Shown in pieces: positions 7 through 44,075 of a stretch of DNA of 44,186 bases. A model generated the notes under the pieces. That model was not told where the DNA came from. It saw only the letters and a program-made list of their open reading frames with translations, and did no database searches. A program made the translations under genes and the position numbers. Numbering within the stretch: position 1 is the first letter of the stretch; every line of letters begins with the position of its first letter. This stretch comes from Kordiimonadales bacterium (GTDB taxonomy: Bacteria; Pseudomonadota; Alphaproteobacteria; Sphingomonadales; Kordiimonadaceae), in the NCBI GenBank assembly GCA_002401685.1, contig NVTU01000002.1, positions 1 to 44,186 on the forward strand, written 5' to 3'.

Positions 7-675
7 TCAGTTTGCGGCGTTGCCCTGGCCCCTCTTCTTCTTGCAATAGGCAATTCCGAAGATGCCTGCGAAGACCATGCAAAGGACCCCGACAACGATG
101 TAGCAGATGGCAAGGAACACGTTCTTGCCTCCGAGCTCGTTGGTGGTGGAGATAACCCACGACTTCTTTCCGTCGAAATCGGCCACTGGGTAGTTGTTCA
201 CGACTGATACCTTGTACTCTCCCGCGGGCAGGTCTTGTTCAATGCGGCCCCAGAGCTTTCTGAAGTCGGGGAGGCCCGCTGTTCTCATCCAGACGATAAA
301 GTGCTCATTCTCGTGGCTGATCCACTGTTTGGTTTTGAAATCGCCCTTGTCCTTGAACTTGTATTCACGGTCGCTCTCCCATGCAATTCCAGTCTCTAAG
401 ATCTCCCTAGGCTCTGTTTCGCCGACTTTGGTGATGGTGAAGGTGTCGTTGAAGAAGGACTTGGCCACTAAACCGCAAGGGTTAGCCTGCTCATCATCGT
501 CCATTTTATCGCCATTGAGGTTGATGTTGAAACCAAGCTGCTTAACGTTTTCAATGGGGTCACAGTCTGCCAGGTCCTTGGGGAACTCTCCTCTCAGTTG
601 GTCGAAAGACCTGCTCTTCACATAACGTCTATGGTTCTGGTAGAAGTTCTCAAGCTGGTAATAGAAATAGACAGG
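7..675 (-). other. Eukaryotic CDC50/LEM3-derived segment (possible chimera or contamination)
   Basis: This stretch encodes the last 222 residues of the fused protein and matches the C-terminal two thirds of CDC50 proteins motif by motif. It keeps the second ectodomain cysteine pair (DCDP and NPCG) and the FNDT glycosylation sequon of the family. There is no intron in about 660 bases. By my count 7 of 10 Arg codons are AGA/AGG, against 2 of about 17 in the BMP part. All eight Gln codons are CAA/CAG and the stop is TGA, so a UAR-as-Gln ciliate code is not indicated. The bacterial-eukaryotic boundary lies around 671-681, beside a GGCGCC at 674-679. The donor looks like a protist; I cannot say which. 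Confidence 0.8.
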
Positions 676-1596
676 CGCCTTCATATCTTCTGTGATCAGC
701 GTTTCATTATGCTCATCAACGGCAAAATCGACGCCGCCTTCTTTGAGGCCAAGCACCGTAAGGCCCGGCTTCCAAGTGCCTGCCTTAGCTTCGTCCATAG
801 CTTTTCGAACCGCCAGATCAACACGCTTAAGCATGCTGGTCAGGACTGTACCAGGCGCAACATGGTTTTGGTTGCTATCTACGCCGATCGCAAATTTGTT
901 CTTATCTTTAGCTGCCTGGATAACACCGAGCCCAGAAGGACCTGCGGCTGAGAAAATCACATCCACACCGCGCGCATACTGTGACTGCGCCATCTCGGAT
1001 GCTTTAATTGGATCATTCCATGCAGAGGGCGTTGTGCCTACGTAATTTTCAACGAAACTAAGATCGTCCCGCACGAAAGTTGCCCCTTGGCGGAAGCCCC
1101 GTTCAAAACGGCGAATCAGTGGGATGTCCATTCCGCCAATAAAACCGATTTTTTTGGTTTCTGTCTTCATGGCAGCGATCATACCAACAAGAAATGATCC
1201 TTCATGTTCCTTGAACGTAATTGACTGTACATTCGGTAAATCTACAACAGCATCAATAACAGTAAACTTCACGTTTGGGTATTTTCTAGCGACGTTACGG
1301 ACAGCTACAGAATAGCCAATACCAACAGCAACAATCAGGTCTGCTTTGCGGCGAGCAAAACGCTTGAGCGCTTGTTCATACTGGGTTTCACTGCTTGGCT
1401 CAAAGTCTCTATAGGGAATGCCATGCTCAGCTTTAAAGGCCTCAGCACCAACGCGCGCTGCCTCGTTAAAGCTTTTATCAAACTTGCCACCAATATCGTA
1501 CAGAAGCACCGGCTTGAAATCTTGAGCAATCACTGATCCAGCAAGTAACACACCTACGGCCAAACCAGCACTTACACGCTTAAGCATTTTTTTCAT
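7..1596 (-). CDS. BMP/PnrA-like nucleoside-binding protein fused in frame to a CDC50/LEM3 C-terminal segment
   Basis: Residues 1-307 are a bacterial periplasmic BMP-family (PnrA-like) ABC substrate-binding protein, which usually captures purine nucleosides. There is a signal peptide at about 1-24, then the BMP core with VLLYDIGGKFDKSFNE and later GLKEGGVDFAVDEHNETLITEDM. From residue 308 the protein becomes a eukaryotic CDC50/LEM3 protein, the beta subunit of P4-ATPase lipid flippases. It shows NFYQNHRRYVKSR, CG..A.SFFNDTF, GIAW, FIVWMRTAGLPDFRKLW, LPAGEYKVSV.NNYPV..FDG and LGGKNVFL, then one membrane helix at about 492-517 and a basic tail. The first CDC50 helix and N-terminal ectodomain are missing, and so are the last 20 or so residues of a normal BMP protein. 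Arg codons shift from mostly CGN to mostly AGA/AGG at the join. The start is supported by the signal peptide. Both domain calls are firm; whether the fusion exists in a living cell is doubtful. Confidence 0.85.
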   Translation of the reverse strand: MKKMLKRVSAGLAVGVLLAGSVIAQDFKPVLLYDIGGKFDKSFNEAARVGAEAFKAEHGIPYRDFEPSSETQYEQALKRFARRKADLIVAVGIGYSVAVRNVARKYPNVKFTVIDAVVDLPNVQSITFKEHEGSFLVGMIAAMKTETKKIGFIGGMDIPLIRRFERGFRQGATFVRDDLSFVENYVGTTPSAWNDPIKASEMAQSQYARGVDVIFSAAGPSGLGVIQAAKDKNKFAIGVDSNQNHVAPGTVLTSMLKRVDLAVRKAMDEAKAGTWKPGLTVLGLKEGGVDFAVDEHNETLITEDMKAPVYFYYQLENFYQNHRRYVKSRSFDQLRGEFPKDLADCDPIENVKQLGFNINLNGDKMDDDEQANPCGLVAKSFFNDTFTITKVGETEPREILETGIAWESDREYKFKDKGDFKTKQWISHENEHFIVWMRTAGLPDFRKLWGRIEQDLPAGEYKVSVVNNYPVADFDGKKSWVISTTNELGGKNVFLAICYIVVGVLCMVFAGIFGIAYCKKKRGQGNAAN

Positions 1597-1784: not shown

Positions 1785-2423
1785 ATGACGGCATCTGTTA
1801 CAGTTGTTGACCACCCGCTGGTCCAACATAAATTAACGCTGCTGCGACGCAAGGAAGCGAGCACGGCTGAGTTTAGAAAACTACTTCGCGAAATCGGTTT
1901 ATTTCTGGGTTACGAAGCGCTGCGCGATTTGCCTCTTGGCAAAATCATGATTGATACGCCCGTTTGCCAGATGGAAGCACCTATTCTTGCGGGTAAAAAG
2001 CTAACCTTCATTTCAGTGCTTCGCGCTGGCGACGGTTTGCTTGGCCCAATGCTGGATCTGGTACCGTCTGCGCGTGTCGGCCAAATTGGCCTTGCGCGTA
2101 ATGAAGAGACCCTCATGCCTGAGAAATATTTCTTCAAAGTACCGCGCGACACTGCGGCCCGCGTGAACGTGGTACTTGATCCTATGCTGGCGACAGGCCA
2201 TTCGGCTGTGCGCGCAGTGCAGGAAATGAAAGATATCGGCGCGAAAGATATTCGTTTTGTTTGCCTCCTTGCTGCTCCTGAGGGTATTAAGACTTTCACG
2301 GAAGCGCATCCGGACGTGCCGCTCATTACCGCATCAATTGATGAGCGGCTTAATGAGAAGGCTTATATCGTTCCGGGCCTTGGGGATGCGGGTGATCGGC
2401 TGTTTGGTACCAAAGGGGTTTAG
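1785..2423 (+). CDS. upp: Uracil phosphoribosyltransferase
   Basis: Upp converts uracil plus PRPP to UMP in pyrimidine salvage, in the cytoplasm. The 212-residue length is typical. The PRPP-binding loop is [13 protein letters not shown] at about 129-141. The conserved N-terminal [12 protein letters not shown] and the uracil-binding C-terminal end, with [15 protein letters not shown], are present. An AAGG-type ribosome site lies just before the ATG. It is the first gene of a three-gene plus-strand salvage run: the next gene starts 5 bases after its stop and PNP follows. Together they funnel free bases and nucleosides into nucleotides. Confidence 0.97.
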
Positions 2424-2428
2424 GACTC

Positions 2429-2983
2429 ATGACTGTTGTTAAAAAATTCGTAACCGCGCAGGAATTACTCGACGATTCATTCGAGCTTGGGCTGAAAATT
2501 CTGAAAAGCGATTTCCGCCCAAAGTTTATCGTTGGCGTTTGGCGTGGCGGCACCCCTACAGGGATCGCCGTTCAGGAGATCTTAGATTATTACGGCGTTG
2601 ATACCGACCATATTGCTATCCGCACGTCCAGCTACATTGGCATGCAGCAACAGAAAGAAGTAAAAGTTCACGGCTTCGAATATATCGTCAATAACATCAA
2701 TGCTGACGACAGCCTTCTTATCGTTGATGATGTGTTTGACAGTGGCCGTTCTATCGCCGCGATTATCTCGCACCTTCGGGAAAAATGCCGCCGCAATACG
2801 CCGGAAACAATTAAGATTGCGACTGTGTTCTATAAGCCAACCCGCAACGTGACCGAGTATGAGCCTGATTTCTACTGTCACGAAACAGATGACTGGCTGG
2901 TTTTCCCGCACGAACTCTCGGACATGACAAAAGAAGAGATTAAAGAGCATAAGGGCCTGTCCCTGCCAGAGATCGACATTTAG
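2429..2983 (+). CDS. Purine (hypoxanthine/xanthine-guanine) phosphoribosyltransferase-like protein
   Basis: This is a type I phosphoribosyltransferase of 184 residues. The PRPP loop LLIVDDVFDSGRS lies at about 96-108. An upstream FIVGVWRGGTPTGIAVQEIL segment forms the pyrophosphate-binding part. The C-terminal YKPTRNVTEYEPDFYCHETDDWLVFPHE is typical of the hypoxanthine/xanthine-guanine branch, where W-x-x-FPHE closes the base pocket. It probably salvages hypoxanthine, guanine or xanthine to the nucleotide. It starts 5 bases after upp, so the two are co-transcribed, and it precedes purine nucleoside phosphorylase, which would supply the bases. The exact base preference cannot be read from the sequence. 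Confidence 0.85.
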   Translation: MTVVKKFVTAQELLDDSFELGLKILKSDFRPKFIVGVWRGGTPTGIAVQEILDYYGVDTDHIAIRTSSYIGMQQQKEVKVHGFEYIVNNINADDSLLIVDDVFDSGRSIAAIISHLREKCRRNTPETIKIATVFYKPTRNVTEYEPDFYCHETDDWLVFPHELSDMTKEEIKEHKGLSLPEIDI

Positions 2984-3000
2984 TCACGCTCACTTGTTTT

Positions 3001-3022
3001 GCCACCGCGCCCTAGCGGTGGC
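3001..3022 (+). other. Intercistronic hairpin
   Basis: GCCACCGC at 3001-3008 pairs perfectly with GCGGTGGC at 3015-3022 around a six-base loop. No T-tract follows on the plus strand. It is more likely an mRNA-stability or attenuating hairpin between the phosphoribosyltransferase gene and the PNP gene than a full terminator. Confidence 0.5.
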
Positions 3023-3058
3023 ATACCCCACTTCCGACGATGCCTCAAAGGATTTGCC

Positions 3059-3880
3059 ATGACGTACGAAGCTGTTCAAGCCTGCGCTGCCCACATCAAA
3101 GAACAATACACAGGCCCAATGCCGAAAATGGCAATGATCCTTGGTAGTGGCCTTAACAGCCTAGCTGACAGCGTTGATGATGCGTCTGTATTCCCTTTCA
3201 ATGAATTGCCGGGCTTCCCAACGCCAACGGTTTCAGGCCACGCCGGCCGTATGCTCATCGGCAAACTAGACGGTAAAGGTGTGATCTGCATGCAGGGCCG
3301 TGTGCACGCCTACGAAGGCCAACCTGAAGAGAAGCTCGCCTTTGCAACACGTGTACTTTGGGCGCTTGGTGTTGAGATACTTGTCCTTACCAACGCTGCA
3401 GGCAGCCTTGACGAAGAAGCTGCACCAGGGGCGCTGATGGCAATTACTGACCATATTAATTTCGCCGGTGTTAATCCGCTCGTTGGGGTGAATGATGAGC
3501 GTTTCGGCCCTCGTTTCACTGACGTAACAACAGCGTGGGACAAAGAACTGACCGACGAACTGCACGGCTGCGCAGACACTCTCGGCTTCAAACTTCACTC
3601 TGGTGTATACCTAATGGCCAAGGGCCCTAATTTCGAGACACCTGCTGAAATCCGCGCGTTCCGTATGTGGGGCGCAAATGCTGTGGGCATGTCGACAGTG
3701 CCTGAGCTCCTGGCGGCTCGGCACTTGGGTATGCGCGTTTGTGGAATCAGTTCCATCACCAACTATGCAGCAGGCATGACAGGCGACGAGCTGACACACA
3801 GCGAAACCATGGAATACGGTGCAATTGCAGCTGTAAACCTCGAGAAACTATTGCGCGCGTTTGCAGGGAAAGTTGCCTAA
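3059..3880 (+). CDS. Purine nucleoside phosphorylase (PNP-I, trimeric type)
   Basis: It cleaves purine (deoxy)nucleosides with phosphate into base plus (deoxy)ribose-1-phosphate. Motifs of the trimeric family appear in order: GSGLNSL (29-35, phosphate loop), HAGR (61-64), QGRVHAYEG (79-87), TNAAGSL (111-117), then KGPNFETPAEIRAFR, GANAVGMSTVPE and ITNYAAGM (about 188-240). I chose the ATG at 3059, which follows AAGGA at good spacing and gives 273 residues, the family norm. The longer frame from 2999 would add 20 residues that include the hairpin. It follows the two phosphoribosyltransferases and is convergent, by 17 bases, with the TTL-like gene. Its base products feed the neighbouring transferase and its deoxyribose-1-phosphate could feed DeoC. 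Confidence 0.95.
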   Translation: MTYEAVQACAAHIKEQYTGPMPKMAMILGSGLNSLADSVDDASVFPFNELPGFPTPTVSGHAGRMLIGKLDGKGVICMQGRVHAYEGQPEEKLAFATRVLWALGVEILVLTNAAGSLDEEAAPGALMAITDHINFAGVNPLVGVNDERFGPRFTDVTTAWDKELTDELHGCADTLGFKLHSGVYLMAKGPNFETPAEIRAFRMWGANAVGMSTVPELLAARHLGMRVCGISSITNYAAGMTGDELTHSETMEYGAIAAVNLEKLLRAFAGKVA

Positions 3881-3897: not shown

Positions 3898-4839
3898 CTA
3901 AGGCTTAATCTCGATTAAACTACCAACGGGTTGATAAAACATACGCTTCAAGCAGGCTTCAAAAAACGGTATATTCACGTCTTCATTGATCTCGTCTGTG
4001 TGAACAAAATTGGGCGCGGCGTTAATTTCAATTAACTTCACCCCTTTGCCTTCCAGCATCAGCGCATCAATACCTAACATCAAAAATGTATCTTGATCGG
4101 TGGCAGCGCGGCTTTCTTCTAGAACAGGCAATAACTGGCGAATTGCCGCCGCAACCTCCCTTATTCGCTGATCCGCGTCCTCCCGCCAGGAAAGAGGGGC
4201 CATATCAATGGTGCTCGCTTCTTTTTCATACCCAGCGTGGTCGATCTGGATTTTAAAATCGCAGCTACCGGCTTCAAATGGCTTGCTGTGGATCACTACA
4301 AATGCCCGGTCAAAAAGAAAAACAGTCTGGTTCCAGATAAGCACATATATCCGTGTGGTGAATTTCCGGCCATCGAGCAGCGCAATATTATTCACACCGG
4401 CTTGGATAATCTCGTGTTTTTCAAGAGTTACCGCTTCCAATGCATCATCCGAAACCACGCGCATCCCCCGGCCACCAGTGCCATACCGGTTCTTGATAAA
4501 CCAGTTTTGGTACCGACCTCGAGGGCACTCAAGGGCCGTTTCAATTTTCACGTAAGTCGGGGGGAAAAGGCCTCGCACACCGCTATCCCGCAACATATGA
4601 GCAAGAGTTGCCTTATTGGCTAATTTATTCCGTGTCCGTTTTTCAACAATTCGGATCAAACGGCCGTTTCTATAGTTATCGCTGGATTTTAGCTCGTCAT
4701 CCCCGATTAAATAACTAAAGCAAGCTGGCTCTTGCTCAAGGGCAGGTTTTAGGGAAAGTCGCACGTTTTCAAGCGCAATTCTGAAAAGGCCACTGGCCCT
4801 GTTAGTGCGTTGTTCAACTTGCAGAGTTTTCGCCACCAT
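3898..4839 (-). CDS. Tubulin-tyrosine-ligase (TTL)-like ATP-grasp ligase
   Basis: This 313-residue protein has an ATP-grasp fold of TTL type. NWFIKNRYGTGGRGMRVV (about 112-129) supplies the ATP lysine and glycine-rich loop. DGRKFTTRIYVLIWNQTVFLFDRAFV (about 156-181) matches the TTL R-x-Y-V-L-I strand. LGIDALMLEGKGVKLIEINAAPNF (about 256-279) holds the metal-binding D, E and N. TTL-family enzymes join an amino acid to a protein or peptide carboxylate using ATP. Bacterial members are largely uncharacterised, so the substrate is unknown. No signal peptide is seen. Codon use resembles its neighbours, so recent transfer is not indicated. It stands alone, facing away from the retropepsin-like gene. 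Another ATP-grasp ligase subfamily is the main alternative. Confidence 0.65.
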   Translation of the reverse strand: MVAKTLQVEQRTNRASGLFRIALENVRLSLKPALEQEPACFSYLIGDDELKSSDNYRNGRLIRIVEKRTRNKLANKATLAHMLRDSGVRGLFPPTYVKIETALECPRGRYQNWFIKNRYGTGGRGMRVVSDDALEAVTLEKHEIIQAGVNNIALLDGRKFTTRIYVLIWNQTVFLFDRAFVVIHSKPFEAGSCDFKIQIDHAGYEKEASTIDMAPLSWREDADQRIREVAAAIRQLLPVLEESRAATDQDTFLMLGIDALMLEGKGVKLIEINAAPNFVHTDEINEDVNIPFFEACLKRMFYQPVGSLIEIKP

Positions 4840-10764: not shown

Positions 10765-12366
10765 TTATTCAGTTTTTTGCTCTTTCATCAAGCTAAACGC
10801 CAAAAGCGCAACGCCCGCAAGGACATAGCCTACGGCAAGTCGGTGTGCGAGCACTTCAAAACCACCCACTTCCGGGATGGCCCACGGCAAATACATAGCA
10901 CCAGAACCAAGAACTGAGTGGATGATTCCAAATTCCGTACAGATCGCCGCCACAAAAGCTGCCCCGGCAGCACGGATTAACCTGCGGTCAATAATCCATA
11001 CCAGCATCACACCCCAGATAAGGCTCGTTAGAATATACCCCCGCGACATAACACCGAGCAAGGCATAGCTCGCTAACCAGTCGGCACCCAGCGCTGCTTG
11101 CGCCGTCTCGCCGATACGGTTGAAAATGTCCGACACTTTCACAAACGTATAATTCATCACGGCTGGTGCAATTGCGAACAACAATACCGGTGCATGCCGC
11201 ACACTACCACCTGAGAAGGCAAGGCGCATGATATCACTAGCAACCACAACCAGGATTGGCTTAATGATAGCCGCAGGAATAAGAGCCGCAGCCAGTGCGA
11301 TCACACCGAAGAGACCACCAATAGTCATCACGCCAGCAGCGCCCAGTGCATAATTCGTGCGTGCGCCCATACGCTTGTAAGTCGCATGCCCGAAATACGG
11401 TGTGGTTTGCACCACGCCGCCAAAAAGTGCGCCAATCGCTGTTGAGGCGGCATCAAGCCTTACAACAACACCAGGGTTATACTCGTCTCCAACAACCTTG
11501 GCACCAGCGACCACATTGACGGCGCTGGCCGCAATCAACAGTGCGAAAGGAATAATGATACCAATATAATTAGAAACAGGGCCAAACATCGCCATCAGGC
11601 CTTCAAGGGTCGGCGTTGGTATTGCTGGCGTAAGGGCCGGAATTTCTTTCAGCGTATAGCCGTCACCGACACCCATAAGCGCAAGCAAATAATAAATCAC
11701 GGTACCCGCAACGATTGCGAGCACAGCACCCGGAATATTAAAGGGTAGTTTGTGGCCAGCGATAAGCGCAAAAGCCATCACCACCAGCGCAAGGAAACCA
11801 ACTTCCGGCAACTCGAAAATGCCGAATATGGCTTCCGCGCCAAGCCACACTGTTGCAATCGCTGCCATCACGCCAATGAGCGCAACCTGTGGCAGTTCGT
11901 GCTGCATCGCACGACCAAAGAAAGACAAAAAGAATTTCACCACGGCCATCCACAAGGTAGCGGCCATGCCAATAATCCACGCCTGATTAGCCGCGTCTGC
12001 GCTGTTCACTGTCTCTAAGCCAACCACGTACGCGGGGCCGACAACAAAGAAAGCCATACCGAAGGTAGTTGGCAGGTCGAGGCCGAGCGGAATGCTGGTT
12101 AGGCTCTTATTCCCTGTTGCAGCAATGGTTTTTCGCGACAACCAGTTGAATGCGAGGTTACCGACCATGATGCCAACAACAGCGCCCGGTATAATTTTGC
12201 CGAAGACCACTTCCGCAGGGAAGGCAAACACGCCCATCAACACCCCGGCGAGCACGAACATATTGACGATAACGTCTAGAAAAAACGCTACGCCTGCGTT
12301 CACGTCAGAGGCTAACTGCGTTGAACCCGCGGCACTAGCCCCCAGTACTCCTGTATCTTCTGCCAT
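10765..12366 (-). CDS. NCS2-like nucleobase permease
   Basis: This is a 533-residue integral membrane protein with roughly 12-14 hydrophobic segments. The N-terminal SDVNAGVAFFLDVIVNMFVLAGVL matches the start of xanthine/uracil (NCS2/AzgA-related) permeases. The central INVVAGAKVVGDEYN-type segment and FGGVVQTTPYFGHATYKRMGARTNYALG fit the substrate-site region of that family. It lies between an exported adenosine deaminase and deoC, so import of a nucleobase or nucleoside, such as hypoxanthine or inosine, is plausible. The family is usually 430-500 residues, so this one is somewhat long. Substrate is inferred. Confidence 0.65.
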   Translation of the reverse strand: MAEDTGVLGASAAGSTQLASDVNAGVAFFLDVIVNMFVLAGVLMGVFAFPAEVVFGKIIPGAVVGIMVGNLAFNWLSRKTIAATGNKSLTSIPLGLDLPTTFGMAFFVVGPAYVVGLETVNSADAANQAWIIGMAATLWMAVVKFFLSFFGRAMQHELPQVALIGVMAAIATVWLGAEAIFGIFELPEVGFLALVVMAFALIAGHKLPFNIPGAVLAIVAGTVIYYLLALMGVGDGYTLKEIPALTPAIPTPTLEGLMAMFGPVSNYIGIIIPFALLIAASAVNVVAGAKVVGDEYNPGVVVRLDAASTAIGALFGGVVQTTPYFGHATYKRMGARTNYALGAAGVMTIGGLFGVIALAAALIPAAIIKPILVVVASDIMRLAFSGGSVRHAPVLLFAIAPAVMNYTFVKVSDIFNRIGETAQAALGADWLASYALLGVMSRGYILTSLIWGVMLVWIIDRRLIRAAGAAFVAAICTEFGIIHSVLGSGAMYLPWAIPEVGGFEVLAHRLAVGYVLAGVALLAFSLMKEQKTE

Positions 12367-36020: not shown

Positions 36021-37469
<1,449 letters not shown>

Positions 37470-37480
37470 CTATTCTCCTA

Positions 37481-38902
37481 TCACCGTTTTCGCAGCAGCA
37501 TGTAAACGCCAGCTGCGATAAACAGACCTACAAACCAAGCATACGCATAGATACTATCAAAAATCACAGGTACGCTTTCAACAACACCCGCCGCGTGCAA
37601 GAAGCCCGGCACGTTCGGTAATATACCCAGCGTAAGCGCGATCAAGCTCGCAGCATTCCATGTACCGTATTCACCGCGGTGATCAAATAAGGCCTCAGCC
37701 TTAAGCTCTCGTTTCCGCAGGAAGAAATAATCCGCTATCAATATGCCAGCAATAGGGCCGAGCAAGGCTGAATAACCAACCAGCCATACAAAAATATAAC
37801 CCTGCGACGTTTCAATCAGTTTCCAAGGGAAAATCGCAATGCCGATACCCGCGGTAATATAGCCGCCCATTTTGAAGCTGATCTTCTTCGGGCTTAAGTT
37901 CGAAAACCCGTAAGCAGGGGCCACCACGTTAGCGGCCAAATTAGTTGTCAGCGTCGCCACCACAAGCGCTGCCAGCGCCACGACAACACCGAGGCCGCCC
38001 ATACGGCCAGCAAGCTGCACGGGGTCCCATATCGCTTCGCCGAAAATAGTCACTGTCGCAGACGTAACCGCAACACTGATAAAAGCGAACAACGCCATCG
38101 GTAACGGCAGGCCTACAGCTTGGCCAATTATCTGGTCACGCTGGGATTTCGCAAAGCGGGTGAAATCCGGAATATTAAGCGCCATTGTCGCCCAAAAGCC
38201 CACCATGCCGGTTAAGCTAACCGCGAACACAGACCAAAACTGGCCCTCTTTTGCCCCGCCCTCAATGAACTGTGACGGCGCAGATAACATCGCACCGAAG
38301 CCACCAGCGGCGAAATAGGCCCAGCCAAGCAGCACAAGCCCCATCAAAATAAGAAACGGCGCTGCGTATGTCTCCAAGGACCGAATGCTCTCCGTACCGT
38401 TTTTAATGAAATACAAATGCATGGCCCAGAAAGCGATGAAGCAGGCGAACTGCCCAAGATCTATACCCAGAACCGCTATATCAGCGCCGACGATCGCGTC
38501 ACCAGTAAGCGCATTGACGATTACATAAATCGCCGAGCCGCCAACCCAGGTATTGATACCAAACCAACCGCAGGCTACCAACCCGCGGGCAAGCGCCGGA
38601 ATACGGGCACCTTTGGTACCAAAAGAGGATCGTAATAAAACAGGGAACGGAATACCGTGTTTGGCACCAGCGTGGCCAATAAGCATCATAGGGAACAGCA
38701 CAATCAGGTTACCGAGCAGCACAGTGAGCACGGCTTGCCACCAGGACATGCCCGATGCGATCAAGCCGCCGGCCAACATATAGGTCGGTACGCAGACAAC
38801 CATCGCAACCCAAAGCGCGCTGTAGGCTTTCCAGTCCCAGGTACGCATTTCTGGCCTTGTGGGTGCTAAATCGCGGTTCCACAAATCATCGGCGATAACC
38901 AC
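37481..38902 (-). CDS. NCS1 family pyrimidine/allantoin-type permease
   Basis: A 473-residue permease of the NCS1 family with about 12 membrane helices. The N-terminal LWNRDLAPTRPEMRTWDWKAYSALWVAM matches the cytosine/uracil/allantoin permease start. GILIADYFFLRK and the loop SQRDQIIGQAVGLPLPM are also family motifs. In this operon it most likely imports uracil, thymine or a dihydropyrimidine. The frame as shown opens with GTG at 38902, whose ribosome site is poorly spaced. An in-frame ATT at 38923 lies seven bases after GGGAG and would add seven residues, so the true start is unsettled. It lies 14 bases upstream of hydA. Confidence 0.9.
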   Translation of the reverse strand: MVIADDLWNRDLAPTRPEMRTWDWKAYSALWVAMVVCVPTYMLAGGLIASGMSWWQAVLTVLLGNLIVLFPMMLIGHAGAKHGIPFPVLLRSSFGTKGARIPALARGLVACGWFGINTWVGGSAIYVIVNALTGDAIVGADIAVLGIDLGQFACFIAFWAMHLYFIKNGTESIRSLETYAAPFLILMGLVLLGWAYFAAGGFGAMLSAPSQFIEGGAKEGQFWSVFAVSLTGMVGFWATMALNIPDFTRFAKSQRDQIIGQAVGLPLPMALFAFISVAVTSATVTIFGEAIWDPVQLAGRMGGLGVVVALAALVVATLTTNLAANVVAPAYGFSNLSPKKISFKMGGYITAGIGIAIFPWKLIETSQGYIFVWLVGYSALLGPIAGILIADYFFLRKRELKAEALFDHRGEYGTWNAASLIALTLGILPNVPGFLHAAGVVESVPVIFDSIYAYAWFVGLFIAAGVYMLLRKR

Positions 38903-38930
38903 GCCTTTTTCTGACTGTTGAATGGTATTA

Positions 38931-38935
38931 CTCCC
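38931..38935 (-). promoter_or_regulatory. Ribosome binding site that favours an ATT start for the NCS1 permease
   Basis: GGGAG lies seven bases upstream of an in-frame ATT (38923-38921), followed by codons for QQSEKGVV and then the annotated GTG-initiated frame. The GTG itself has AAGG only about two bases before it. AUU initiation is rare, so this stays a hypothesis. Confidence 0.3.
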
Positions 38936-39037
38936 TTTTCCGTCCTGCTAATCAAGCCGAGCCCGTTTTTCACAAGGCTCAGCCTGACAATTTAGCCGCC
39001 CCCGCAGCCAAATTTTCTTCCAACAGTGGGGCGAGAA

Positions 39038-39922
39038 TTACTCGCCGTCTGTTAGCCTTGCATAGGTACTAGGCCGACGGTCACGGAAGAATTGCCATCC
39101 GTTCCGTACTTCCTGTACCAAGCTCATATCCATATCATGGATGATAAGCTCATCCTTGTCACGGCTGGCTTCTTTTTCGATCTGACCGCGTGGGTTGACG
39201 AAATAGCTCTGGCCGTAAAACTCACCAATATTCCACGGAGCTTCGGTACCAACCCGGTTGATGGCGCCAATGTAACACCCGTTTGCAGCAGCAGATGCAG
39301 GCTGTTCCAGCTTCCACAAATACTCAGACAAGCCAGCTACAGTGGCAGACGGATTAACGATGTATTCCGCGCCGTTCAGGGCCAGCGCACGCCAGCCTTC
39401 AGGGAAGTGACGGTCATAACAAATATAAACGCCGAGCTTGCAGTACTGGGTCTGGAACACTGGCCAGTTTGAGTTGCCCGGCTTGAAGAAGAATTTCTCC
39501 CAAAAGCCCTTAACCTGCGGGATGTGCGTTTTGCGGTATTTACCAAGGTAGCTACCGTCTGCGTCTATCACTGCAGCAGTATTATAATAAATGCCGGTTA
39601 CATCATCTTTCTCGTAGATCGGAACAACGATAACCATTTTGTATTTTTTGGCATATTCCTGCATCAAAACAGTGGTGGGGCCGCTTGGGATACTTTCAGC
39701 GCTGGCGTACCATTTCTCGTCCTGGCTTGGGCAAAAATAAGGCTGCGTGAATACTTCCTGGAAGCAAAGCACCTGCACACCTTTTTCGCCGGCTTCTTCG
39801 ATCAGCGGAATATGTGCTTCGATCATTGCCTGGCGAATGGTCTCTGGATCATTATCCGTTGATGACTTTAGCGCCATCTGGATCAAACCGCCGCGCAGCG
39901 TTGCATTTGTATTTATAGCCAT
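39038..39922 (-). CDS. Nitrilase-superfamily N-carbamoyl-beta-alanine amidohydrolase (beta-ureidopropionase)
   Basis: It hydrolyses N-carbamoyl-beta-alanine (or the methyl analogue) to the beta-amino acid, CO2 and ammonia. The Glu-Lys-Cys triad of the nitrilase fold is present: E56 in CFQEVFTQPYF, K131 in KYRKTHIP and C168 in YICYDRHFPEGWR. The PYFCPSQDEKWY loop resembles beta-alanine synthase-type members. It is 294 residues long. GGGGAGACATA precedes the ATG. Downstream (on its strand) lies the NCS1 permease, about 115 bases on, and upstream lies mmsA, 30 bases away. N-carbamoylputrescine amidase is the main alternative; operon context favours the pyrimidine role. Confidence 0.9.
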   Translation of the reverse strand: MAINTNATLRGGLIQMALKSSTDNDPETIRQAMIEAHIPLIEEAGEKGVQVLCFQEVFTQPYFCPSQDEKWYASAESIPSGPTTVLMQEYAKKYKMVIVVPIYEKDDVTGIYYNTAAVIDADGSYLGKYRKTHIPQVKGFWEKFFFKPGNSNWPVFQTQYCKLGVYICYDRHFPEGWRALALNGAEYIVNPSATVAGLSEYLWKLEQPASAAANGCYIGAINRVGTEAPWNIGEFYGQSYFVNPRGQIEKEASRDKDELIIHDMDMSLVQEVRNGWQFFRDRRPSTYARLTDGE

Positions 39923-39952
39923 TATGTCTCCCCTTTTCCCTATGTGCCCAGC

Positions 39953-41449
39953 TTAACCGAGGCTTGGGAACGTAAATTCAGCTCCTTCGCGGATACCCGT
40001 AGGCCAACGCGAGGTTACTGTTTTAAGTTTCGTATAAAAATTAACTGCTTCAGGCCCGTAAATGCCGTGCGCCCCAAAGATTGAGCGCTTCCAGCCGCCA
40101 AAGCTGTGATAAGCCACTGGCACAGGAATTGGCACATTGATGCCAACCATGCCGACTTGCACTTTGGCTGCAAATTCGCGCGCAGCGTCGCCGTCCCGCG
40201 TGAAGATCGCCGTGCCGTTGCCGTACTGATGCGAATTGATCAGATCAAGCGCTTCATCATAGCTTTTCGCCCGCAGGACAGAAAGCACAGGACCAAATAT
40301 TTCTTCTTTATAAACAGTCATTTCAGGCGTTACATGATCAAGCAGTGTGCCGCCAACCCAGAAACCTCCCTCATAACCCTGCAGCTTGTGTCCGCGACCA
40401 TCTACAATCACTTTAGCGCCCTCTTTCTCACCTTGTGAGATCAGGCCTTCGATCCGCGCTTTCGCTTCGGCTGTAATAACCGGGCCCATTACGGCGTCCG
40501 GGTCGTCATGTGGCCCAATGGCCATCGCTTGCACCTGGGGGGCAAGTTTTTCAATTAGTTTATTAGCAGTTTCTTCGCCAATAGGTACCGCCACGCTGAT
40601 AGCCATGCAGCGTTCGCCAGCAGACCCGAAGCCCGCGCCCATCAGGGCATCAGCGGCTTGGTCAATATCAGCATCAGGCATAATGATCATATGGTTCTTG
40701 GCACCGCCCAGGGCTTGCACGCGCTTACCAGCTGCACAGCCGCGGTTATAAACATATTCCGCAATCGGTGTTGAGCCAACGAAACTGATCGCTTGCACGT
40801 CTTTATGATCCAGCAGCGCATCAACAGCATCTTTGCCGCCATGCACAACATTAAGAACACCAGCAGGCAAGCCAGCTTCCTTGAACAGTTCGTGCACCAG
40901 ATTGGCGCTCGACGGGTCCCGCTCAGAGGGCTTCAAGATGAACGTATTACCAGTGGCGATCGCCATTGGGATCATCCACAACGGCACCATGGCGGGGAAG
41001 TTGAACGGCGTAATGCCTGCCACAACGCCCAGCGCCTGACGCTCAGAACAGGTATCAATACCCGGTCCGACATCGCGGCTGAACTCGCCCTTCAGTTTCT
41101 CAGGGATACCGCAGGCATATTCCACGACTTCGAGAGCGCGGGTGACTTCACCGAGTGCATCATCGTGGGTTTTGCCGTGCTCTAAGCTGATCGCCCGCGC
41201 CACATCATCAGCGCGGCGCTCAAGAATATCGCGCAGCCGGAACATAACCCGCGCCCGCTTTGCAGGCGGCGTTGCAGACCATGTCACGAACGCTTTCTTA
41301 GCGGAGGCAACGGCCATATCAATTTCTGAGGCACCGCCCAGCAGGACCTCGCCCGATTGCTCACCCGTTGCCGGGTTAAATATAGGCGCGCGGTTGCCGG
41401 ATGTTCCAGCGGTCAGCTCATTGTCGATGATATGTTTTACAAGTGTCAT
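39953..41449 (-). CDS. mmsA: CoA-acylating methylmalonate/malonate-semialdehyde dehydrogenase
   Basis: It converts malonate semialdehyde to acetyl-CoA and methylmalonate semialdehyde to propionyl-CoA, with NAD and CoA. The 498-residue chain has the MmsA features: GITPFNFPAMVPLWMIPMAIATGNTFILKPSERDPS, VGSTPIAEYVYNRG, LGGAKNHMIIMPDAD (where most ALDHs have the catalytic Glu) and the nucleophile near residue 280 in AGERCMAISVAV. It ends with NVPIPVPVAYHSFGGWKRSIFG. Its start lies 2 bases after the aminotransferase stop, so translation is coupled. It closes the pathway from uracil and thymine to central metabolism. Confidence 0.96.
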   Translation of the reverse strand: MTLVKHIIDNELTAGTSGNRAPIFNPATGEQSGEVLLGGASEIDMAVASAKKAFVTWSATPPAKRARVMFRLRDILERRADDVARAISLEHGKTHDDALGEVTRALEVVEYACGIPEKLKGEFSRDVGPGIDTCSERQALGVVAGITPFNFPAMVPLWMIPMAIATGNTFILKPSERDPSSANLVHELFKEAGLPAGVLNVVHGGKDAVDALLDHKDVQAISFVGSTPIAEYVYNRGCAAGKRVQALGGAKNHMIIMPDADIDQAADALMGAGFGSAGERCMAISVAVPIGEETANKLIEKLAPQVQAMAIGPHDDPDAVMGPVITAEAKARIEGLISQGEKEGAKVIVDGRGHKLQGYEGGFWVGGTLLDHVTPEMTVYKEEIFGPVLSVLRAKSYDEALDLINSHQYGNGTAIFTRDGDAAREFAAKVQVGMVGINVPIPVPVAYHSFGGWKRSIFGAHGIYGPEAVNFYTKLKTVTSRWPTGIREGAEFTFPSLG

Positions 41450-41451
41450 AG

Positions 41452-42783
41452 TTAATCCAGTGCCTTAATAACTTTTGCGAGCGTGTCGAACGCAAAATCA
41501 ATATCGGATTTTTCAATAATTAGCGGCGGCGACAGTGCGATGGTATCGCCCGTCGTGCGAATAAGCAGGCCCGCTTCGTAAGCCTCAAGGAAAGCATCAA
41601 AGGCCCGTGCGCCAACCTTGCCTTCCCGTGACCGCAGTTCAATCCCTGCAATCAAGCCCATGTTCCGAACATCGATCACATGCGGCAGGTCCGCCAAAGA
41701 ATGCGCTGCGTCCTGCCAATAATCGGAAAGCTCTGCACCGCGGGTCAGCAAGCCCTCTTCCTCATGGGTATCGAGGGTCGCAAGCGCCGCAGCACACGCC
41801 ATCGGGTTACCGGAGAAAGTATAGCCGTGGAAAAACTCCACCATATTCTCAGGGCCCGTCATAAAGGCATCGTAAATTTTGTCTTGCACGAACACGGCAC
41901 CCATCGGGATAACACCGTTCGCTAGGGCTTTGGCCGTGGTGATGATGTCAGCTTCAATATCGAACTGGTTGCTGGCAAACGGTGTACCGAGCCTACCGAA
42001 CCCAGTGATCACTTCGTCTAGGATCAAAAGGATGCCGTTATCAGTACAAATCTTGCGCAGGCGCTCAAGGTATCCCTTTGGCGGCAGAATGACGCCCGCG
42101 GACGCTGCCAGTGGCTCCACGATCACCGCAGCGATTGTAGAGGCATCATGCAGCTCGATCATGCGGATCAAATCATCCGCATATTCCGCACCGTTTTCAG
42201 GCTGGCCTTTTGAGAAGCGGTTGCCTTCAATGCCGTGCGTGTGGCGCAGGTGATCAACACCCGCGACCAAATTGCCAAACATCTTACGGTTCGCAGGCAT
42301 ACCGCCCACGGCCATGCCGCCGAAGTTCACACCGTGGTAGCCTTTTTCGCGGCCAATCAACCGTGTGCGGTGGCCTTCGCCCCGGACACGGTGATAGGCA
42401 ATTGCCATTTTCAGCGCCGTTTCAACGGATTCAGACCCACTGTTGGTGAAGAATATTTTATTCAGATCGCCCGGCATCATGCGCGCTAGGCGGCTCGCTA
42501 GCTCGAACTGCTTCGAGTGGCCCATCTGAAACGCTGGCGCGTAATCTAATTCAGCAGCCTGCTTCTGGATTGCTTCTACAATACGCGGGCGGTTATGGCC
42601 TGCGTTGCAGCACCACAAACCAGCGATGCCGTCCAACAGTTTCCTGCCGTCCGACAAGGTGAAGTGCATCCGGTCGGCGCCGACCACCATACGGGGGTTG
42701 GCCTTGAAATGCCGGTTCGCCGTGAAAGGCATCCAGTAGGCGTCAAGGTCGTTGGCTTTCATGCCTGCTTCTAGATTAGTCAT
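41452..42783 (-). CDS. Class III omega-amino acid:pyruvate aminotransferase
   Basis: This PLP enzyme most likely transfers the amino group of beta-alanine or beta-aminoisobutyrate to pyruvate, giving the semialdehyde used by MmsA. Family motifs are DAYWMPFTANRHFK (start), GLWCCNAGHNRPRI, FTNSGSESVETALKMA, and ILLILDEVITGFGRLGTPFA with the PLP Asp. The PLP lysine is near residue 286 in TTAKALANGVIPMGAVFV. GYTFSGNPMACAAALATLD follows. It is 443 residues, the class norm. AAGGGGAACTG precedes the ATG. It sits between preA and mmsA, exactly where a beta-alanine transaminase is needed. Confidence 0.94.
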   Translation of the reverse strand: MTNLEAGMKANDLDAYWMPFTANRHFKANPRMVVGADRMHFTLSDGRKLLDGIAGLWCCNAGHNRPRIVEAIQKQAAELDYAPAFQMGHSKQFELASRLARMMPGDLNKIFFTNSGSESVETALKMAIAYHRVRGEGHRTRLIGREKGYHGVNFGGMAVGGMPANRKMFGNLVAGVDHLRHTHGIEGNRFSKGQPENGAEYADDLIRMIELHDASTIAAVIVEPLAASAGVILPPKGYLERLRKICTDNGILLILDEVITGFGRLGTPFASNQFDIEADIITTAKALANGVIPMGAVFVQDKIYDAFMTGPENMVEFFHGYTFSGNPMACAAALATLDTHEEEGLLTRGAELSDYWQDAAHSLADLPHVIDVRNMGLIAGIELRSREGKVGARAFDAFLEAYEAGLLIRTTGDTIALSPPLIIEKSDIDFAFDTLAKVIKALD

Positions 42784-42800
42784 CAGTTCCCCTTTCGGCC

Positions 42801-44075
42801 TTATTCGGCAGCTTTCATTGGGTTAAGCGGATGCTCTGGCCATGTCATGGCTGGTTTACCGTTATCAACGGGCCGCATTTCAATACATTCAGGTACCGGG
42901 CAGATCATGGCACACAGGTTACATCCAACGCATTCTTCGTCCACTACGGTGAAGGTGCGCTTGCCGTCCTCGGCCACTGAAAATTCAATGGCTTGGTGCG
43001 CGGTATCTTCACAGGCAATGTGACAGCGCCCGCATTCGATGCAGCTGTCAGGGTCAATATAGGCCTTGGTATCAAAGTTCATATCAAGCGCGTTCCAGTC
43101 GACGGTGTTTGGCACTGCCATCCCGCGGAAATCGCTGATTGTTTTATAGCCTTTTTCGTCCATCCAACCTGACAGACCCGCGATCATATCATCAACAATC
43201 CGAAAGCCGTAGAGCATCGCAGCCGTACAGACCTGCAGGCCTTCAGCGCCGAGCGCAATAAACTCAGCAGCGTCGCGCCATGTCTCGATGCCGCCAATGG
43301 CTGACATTGCAAGGTCACTTGTTTCCGGGTTACGGGCAATTTCCGCAACCATATGCAAGGCGATAGGCTTCACCGCAGAACCGCAATAGCCGCCGTGTGT
43401 GCCTTTGCCGTTCACAACCGGCGTCGGCGCCATTGCGTCCAGATCAACAGACACAACGGAGTTCACCGTATTGATCAAAGACACCGCATCCGCGCCGCCC
43501 TTTTGCGCGGCTTCTGCGGACCACAGGATATTGGTGATGTTCGGCGTAAGCTTGGTGAAGACAGGAATATCAACAACATCCCGCACCCAGCGCGTTACTT
43601 TTTCCACCATCTCCGGTACTTGGCCAATGGCAGAGCCCATGCCGCGCTCACACATACCGTGCGGGCAACCAAGATTAAGCTCGATGCCCTGAACGCCAGA
43701 GTCTGCAATGCGGACAGCCAGCTCTTTCCAGATATCTTCTTCAATCTCAGCCATCATCGAGCCAATGATCACCCGGTCCGGCCATTCTTTGCGAAGGCGT
43801 CGGATTTCTTCCAGGTTGGTCTCAAGCGGCCGGTCAGAGATCAGCTCGATATTATTAATACCGAGAATCGCCTGGTTACCGTTTTTGTGGACGCCGTAGC
43901 GGCTCGACACATTGATAACCGGCGGATCGATGCCGAGTGTTTTCCAAACCACACCGCCCCAGCCTGCTTCAAAGGCACGGACCACGTTGATGTATTTATC
44001 TGTAGGCGGCGCTGAGGCCAGCCAGAAAGGATTGATGCTCTCGACACCCGCTATATTACAGCTTAAGTCTGCCAC
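42801..44075 (-). CDS. preA: NAD-dependent dihydropyrimidine dehydrogenase, subunit PreA
   Basis: The catalytic half of bacterial dihydropyrimidine dehydrogenase, which reduces uracil and thymine using electrons from PreT. Residues about 1-320 form an FMN-binding DHODH-like barrel with GGVVWKTLG, NLGCPHGMCERGMGSAIGQ, KLTPNITN, INTVNS and SAIGGIETW. The C-terminal part carries two 4Fe-4S motifs: CIECGRCHIAC (from about 343) and CVGCNLCAMIC then P. The start is GTG at 44075, after AGGAGG, 9 bases beyond the preT stop; the ATG one base upstream is out of frame. C142 sits where other bacterial PreA proteins, as I recall, have Ser. Confidence 0.96.
   Translation of the reverse strand: MADLSCNIAGVESINPFWLASAPPTDKYINVVRAFEAGWGGVVWKTLGIDPPVINVSSRYGVHKNGNQAILGINNIELISDRPLETNLEEIRRLRKEWPDRVIIGSMMAEIEEDIWKELAVRIADSGVQGIELNLGCPHGMCERGMGSAIGQVPEMVEKVTRWVRDVVDIPVFTKLTPNITNILWSAEAAQKGGADAVSLINTVNSVVSVDLDAMAPTPVVNGKGTHGGYCGSAVKPIALHMVAEIARNPETSDLAMSAIGGIETWRDAAEFIALGAEGLQVCTAAMLYGFRIVDDMIAGLSGWMDEKGYKTISDFRGMAVPNTVDWNALDMNFDTKAYIDPDSCIECGRCHIACEDTAHQAIEFSVAEDGKRTFTVVDEECVGCNLCAMICPVPECIEMRPVDNGKPAMTWPEHPLNPMKAAE

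Follow-up and report, generated by a model that had tools for sequence, protein, structure and literature searches.

Does the frame at the tip of this bacterial contig, part binding protein and part subunit of eukaryotic flippases, represent a genuine gene fusion, or is the edge of the contig an artefact? The window (the whole stretch of DNA analysed, 44,186 nucleotides) corresponds to bases 1-44186 of contig C51 (119,835 bases), window base 1 being contig base 1, and C51 belongs to a genome bin of 63 contigs and 2,684,488 bases, with completeness rated at 76.96% and contamination at 1.03%. A single minus-strand frame of 529 amino acids runs without interruption through 7..1596, with its stop codon at 7-9 and the contig tip 6 bases beyond (Table 1). 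On the evidence below, the joined frame is almost certainly a chimera of assembly (or of library preparation or amplification) and not a real gene.

Pfam assigned residues 34-306 of the translated frame to Bmp (PF02608; E 1.1e-62, 212.3 bits against a curated cut-off of 24.1) and residues 301-522 to CDC50 (PF03381; E 5.7e-74, 249.5 bits against a curated cut-off of 28.6). The CDC50 part also matched solved human and yeast CDC50 chains in a PDB sequence search (best E 1.2e-38), whilst in NCBIfam one BMP-type model was found at 77.1 bits, far under its cut-off of 400. The product is of BMP/PnrA type up to residue 307 and of CDC50/LEM3 type after it. Translation, Pfam and the PDB matches confirm the observation of a BMP-CDC50 frame in the preliminary description of this DNA, including its coordinates and domain split. 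The join had been placed at 671-681, which also holds, the last BMP-like base being window 677 in an alignment with another contig of the same bin, C22.

Table 1. Coordinates, strand and supporting evidence for features around the BMP-CDC50 join; positions refer to the window.
Feature	Position	Strand	Evidence
Open reading frame at contig tip, 529 aa, almost certainly chimeric	7..1596 including stop codon	minus	translation, Pfam
BMP/PnrA-type binding protein, residues 1-307, ordinary last 26 residues absent	677..1596	minus	Pfam, relatives, C22
CDC50/LEM3 fragment, starting shortly ahead of the NFYQNHRRY motif and ending with the stop codon	7..676	minus	Pfam, PDB matches, codon choice
14-nt stretch, same in C51 and C22, directly before the join	677..690	minus	C51-C22 alignment
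Contig end, 6 bases past the CDC50 stop codon	1..6	no strand	sequence
Neighbours on the intact side: uracil phosphoribosyltransferase, phosphoribosyltransferase-domain protein, phosphorylase-superfamily protein	1785..3880	plus	Pfam; gene order in 6/6 relatives

Neither part is complete. The first resembles the BMP/PnrA-like ABC-transporter substrate-binding proteins (PF02608) over residues 34-306, and its gene stands beside nucleobase and nucleoside salvage genes, but on C51 it lacks the last 26 residues usual in these proteins. The second resembles the CDC50/LEM3 family, the beta subunits of P4-ATPase flippases (PF03381), over profile positions 48-285 of 286; it differs in that the start of the family profile is absent and the remainder runs on from a bacterial gene at the end of a contig. 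A complete CDC50/LEM3 protein, whose ectodomain would be flanked on both sides by membrane helices, was not found here, the residues ahead of profile position 48 being those of BMP. The first CDC50 membrane helix presumably lies in the missing family start. Host DNA flanks the foreign part on one side; on the other the contig ends, leaving the far side out of view.

CDC50/LEM3 proteins are described in one published account as present in all eukaryotes (PMC4937031). Among 398 genomes drawn from the phylum, CDC50 was detected in one, the bin studied here, leaving 0 of the 397 others, and in 0 of 14 control genomes. Written as a degenerate DNA pattern, the motif NFYQNHRRYV had a single occurrence in the window and none in 100 shuffles. 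A peptide pattern matched 21 stretches in genome_contigs and four in viral_contigs, none of them a relative by tblastn, and the exact NFYQNHRRYV pattern was found in neither collection (0 in each), both of which may omit records very near the genome studied. No match was returned by a search of PHROGs, and when a second copy of the CDC50 DNA was sought in the bin the window itself was the sole match. A partner P4-ATPase was sought with PF16212, which is uninformative here: the bin's own genome, 77% complete, gave no match, but neither did the controls.

An ordinary end of the BMP gene is present elsewhere in the bin. Contig C22 (39,442 bases) terminates within the same BMP gene; its BMP frame starts at the equivalent of residue 182, is 152 residues long and reaches an ordinary end 26 residues past the join point. 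Next comes an ABC-type ATPase gene, so named on visual inspection of its P-loop. The two contigs align without gaps and collinearly over 378 nt (window 677-1054 against 1508-1885 of the fetched C22 stretch), of which 327 are identical (86.5%). This alignment ends at window 677, where similarity stops, and its final 14 nt (677..690), which encode EDMK and two bases of an Ala codon, are identical.

Relatives gave the same picture of an ordinary gene. The BMP part had one match in each of the 18 other same-genus genomes (18/18), ending at query residue 306-308. Of 21 relatives with a match, two yielded no locus, and in all 19 that were fetched (18 of the same genus and one of the same family) the gene carried an ordinary BMP tail without CDC50, extending 24-27 residues past the end of the alignment (query residue 306-309). 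In six relatives inspected from among the 18 same-genus genomes, BMP lay between salvage genes (pnp, hpt-like, upp) and the ATPase gene (6/6). Because this order of salvage genes, BMP and ATPase forms one locus in all six, C51 and C22 carry the two flanks of what in those relatives is a single locus. The complete BMP C-terminus and the adjoining ABC-type ATPase gene are both absent from C51, and both are found on C22 and in the relatives (tail 19/19, ATPase 6/6).

The overlap between the two contigs differs by 13.5%, and C51 and C22 are therefore not two copies of one molecule. Probably the bin mixes two close lineages, or else there are two BMP genes in the strain; with a single BMP match in each of the 18 relatives, a second copy would not be expected.

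For three amino acids the codon choice of the added part is foreign. Arginine, lysine and phenylalanine codons in the CDC50 stub are not adapted to the host: AGA/AGG supplied 7 of 10 arginines (121/727 in the reference; binomial P 2.7e-4), AAG 15 of 19 lysines (196/580; P 7.3e-5) and TTC 15 of 16 phenylalanines (233/493; P 1.2e-4), the reference being the pooled longest frames of 40 contig starts, C8 and C22 included. Third-position G+C was 0.71 in the CDC50 part and 0.43 in the BMP part, with the former above host segments (z +3.1) and the latter also displaced (z -2.5). By summed codon log-likelihood the CDC50 part was indistinguishable from 39 host segments (z 0.24), in a test that treated all open reading frames from 250 aa upwards as genes and may include false ones. 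AGA/AGG also made up at least half of the arginines at two other contig starts, in short frames (C13, 5/6; C58, 2/4).

Horizontal transfer would explain the frame as a real fusion, a eukaryotic CDC50 having entered the BMP gene so that the last CDC50 helix tethers a periplasmic binding protein to the inner membrane. In favour of this, strand and frame are kept across an uninterrupted join, and the C22 BMP end, differing by 13.5% in DNA, could be a second copy. In this reading one strain of the genus would carry a CDC50 ectodomain and helix fused in frame to BMP together with the ordinary BMP copy of C22 beside its ATPase gene, and we regard such a strain as very improbable. The fusion lies where the contig ends, is followed by no bacterial sequence, is absent from 18/18 other same-genus genomes and has the foreign codons described above; the single BMP match in each relative argues against a second copy, and in 6/6 relatives inspected the sequences of C51 and C22 are the two sides of one locus. 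The 13.5% divergence between C22 and C51 in their overlap leads us to retain a small probability for a real fusion. As one of its two readings the preliminary description had offered a genuine receptor held in the membrane by a eukaryotic helix, which is not borne out: no relative searched has the fusion, the ordinary end lies on C22 and eukaryotic-type sequence stands at the tip. It had also named the same fusion in an independent genome as support, and none was seen in the 18 same-genus genomes, nor any CDC50 in the 397 from the phylum.

Alternatively, eukaryotic DNA might have inserted into this strain's BMP gene and simply disrupted it, leaving a pseudogene; this would account for the lost BMP tail on C51 and for the foreign codons of the added part. 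The points that weigh against a real fusion apply to it equally, and the contig ends, so that the far side of any insertion is out of sight; we consider it extremely unlikely. The reverse case, in which the contig tip would be eukaryotic nuclear DNA with a captured bacterial BMP gene, could draw on the presence of eukaryotic-type DNA in the bin. The length of the contig (119,835 bases) weighs against it, and it is already contradicted by the genes beyond BMP, which match the order in 6/6 relatives inspected, leaving it a vanishingly small likelihood.

Other genes of the window were recorded in passing. A minus-strand frame at 3898-4839 matched the tubulin-tyrosine-ligase family, with a counterpart in only one of the 18 other same-genus genomes (53% identity). 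A 533-aa frame (10765-12366, minus strand) with no Pfam match at E 1e-5 is flanked by genes of the DeoC/LacD-aldolase and adenosine-deaminase families. At 36021-44075, also on the minus strand, are genes for an amidohydrolase, a cytosine/purine-type permease, an aldehyde dehydrogenase and a dihydroorotate-dehydrogenase-family protein with a 4Fe-4S domain, which could serve pyrimidine or hydantoin breakdown.

Contamination would lead one to expect other eukaryotic DNA in the same bin, and such DNA was found in the form of contig C8. Of the 62 other contigs, 60 (all but C62 and C63) were surveyed over their first 1,500 bases only, and among these starts C8 was the one clear G+C outlier at 27%. 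It is 9,539 bases long, with 24-36% G+C per kb (mean about 29%), and carries 11 tRNA genes, LSU and SSU rRNA genes with full-length matches to bacterial models (1659.7 and 960.4 bits) and genes for rps11, rps13, rpl2, rps19, the rps3 C-terminal domain and rpl16. The order rps19, rps3, rpl16, with rpl22 missing, is one of mitochondria rather than of bacteria. C8 also has a match to YMF19, the mitochondrial protein of atp8 type (33.3 bits against a cut-off of 22.6), for which there was no PDB match. The best solved relative of its S19 was mitochondrial S19, whereas for L2 bacterial-type chains scored best and mitochondrial L2 lower. From this gene content C8 looks mitochondrial and is taken to be so. 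C8 supplies the only bacterial-model SSU rRNA in the bin, which is uninformative as to the absence of another, four of four relatives rated 100% complete also showing none. The sample was probably mixed, and CDC50 and C8 may come from one eukaryote.

The chimera is thus the reading we favour. The real bacterial gene would encode an ordinary binding protein of BMP/PnrA type, about 333 residues long, and be followed by the ABC-type ATPase gene; at window about 677-690 the contig would have been wrongly extended into a eukaryotic CDC50 coding sequence, for about 670 bases to the tip. The false join may have formed at a stretch alike in BMP and CDC50, where an assembler, or template switching during amplification, could cross over. 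The residues ahead of the join, ITEDMK, are ordinary BMP (as in C22 and the relatives). When the pre-join residues were offered, the yeast Cdc50 match started at fusion residue 301 and rose from 119.7 to 123.9 bits (a comparison of ranges and scores only), and the Pfam CDC50 match likewise starts at residue 301. Judged from sequence, the patch at 677..690 seems to fit both families. That assembling mixed data can yield chimeric sequences through the merging of similar regions is stated in at least one published account (PMC8862208). The present case resembles the chimeric contigs and eukaryotic contamination of prokaryote bins treated there in having a foreign piece at a contig end and a foreign-looking contig, and differs in that the join is in frame and so resembles a gene fusion (PMC8862208).

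Several observations count against a chimera. The frame is kept across the join, which has a chance of about 1/3 once the strand is right; the 13.5% difference means that C22 does not just continue the same molecule; and the codon log-likelihood (z 0.24), the bacterial-type L2 of C8 and the YMF19 protein without a PDB match point the same way. The preliminary description had offered a chimeric left edge as its fallback, and this is the part of its interpretation that we adopt, in view of the contig tip, the BMP tail on C22, the loss of similarity at 677, the relatives, the foreign codons and the mitochondrial-type C8 in the bin.

The case is a warning: a chimera that is in frame and sits at the end of a contig can be mistaken for a cross-domain gene fusion and could reach databases labelled as a bacterial CDC50. 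It likewise draws attention to a prokaryote bin that, although rated 1.03% contaminated, holds a mitochondrial-type contig.
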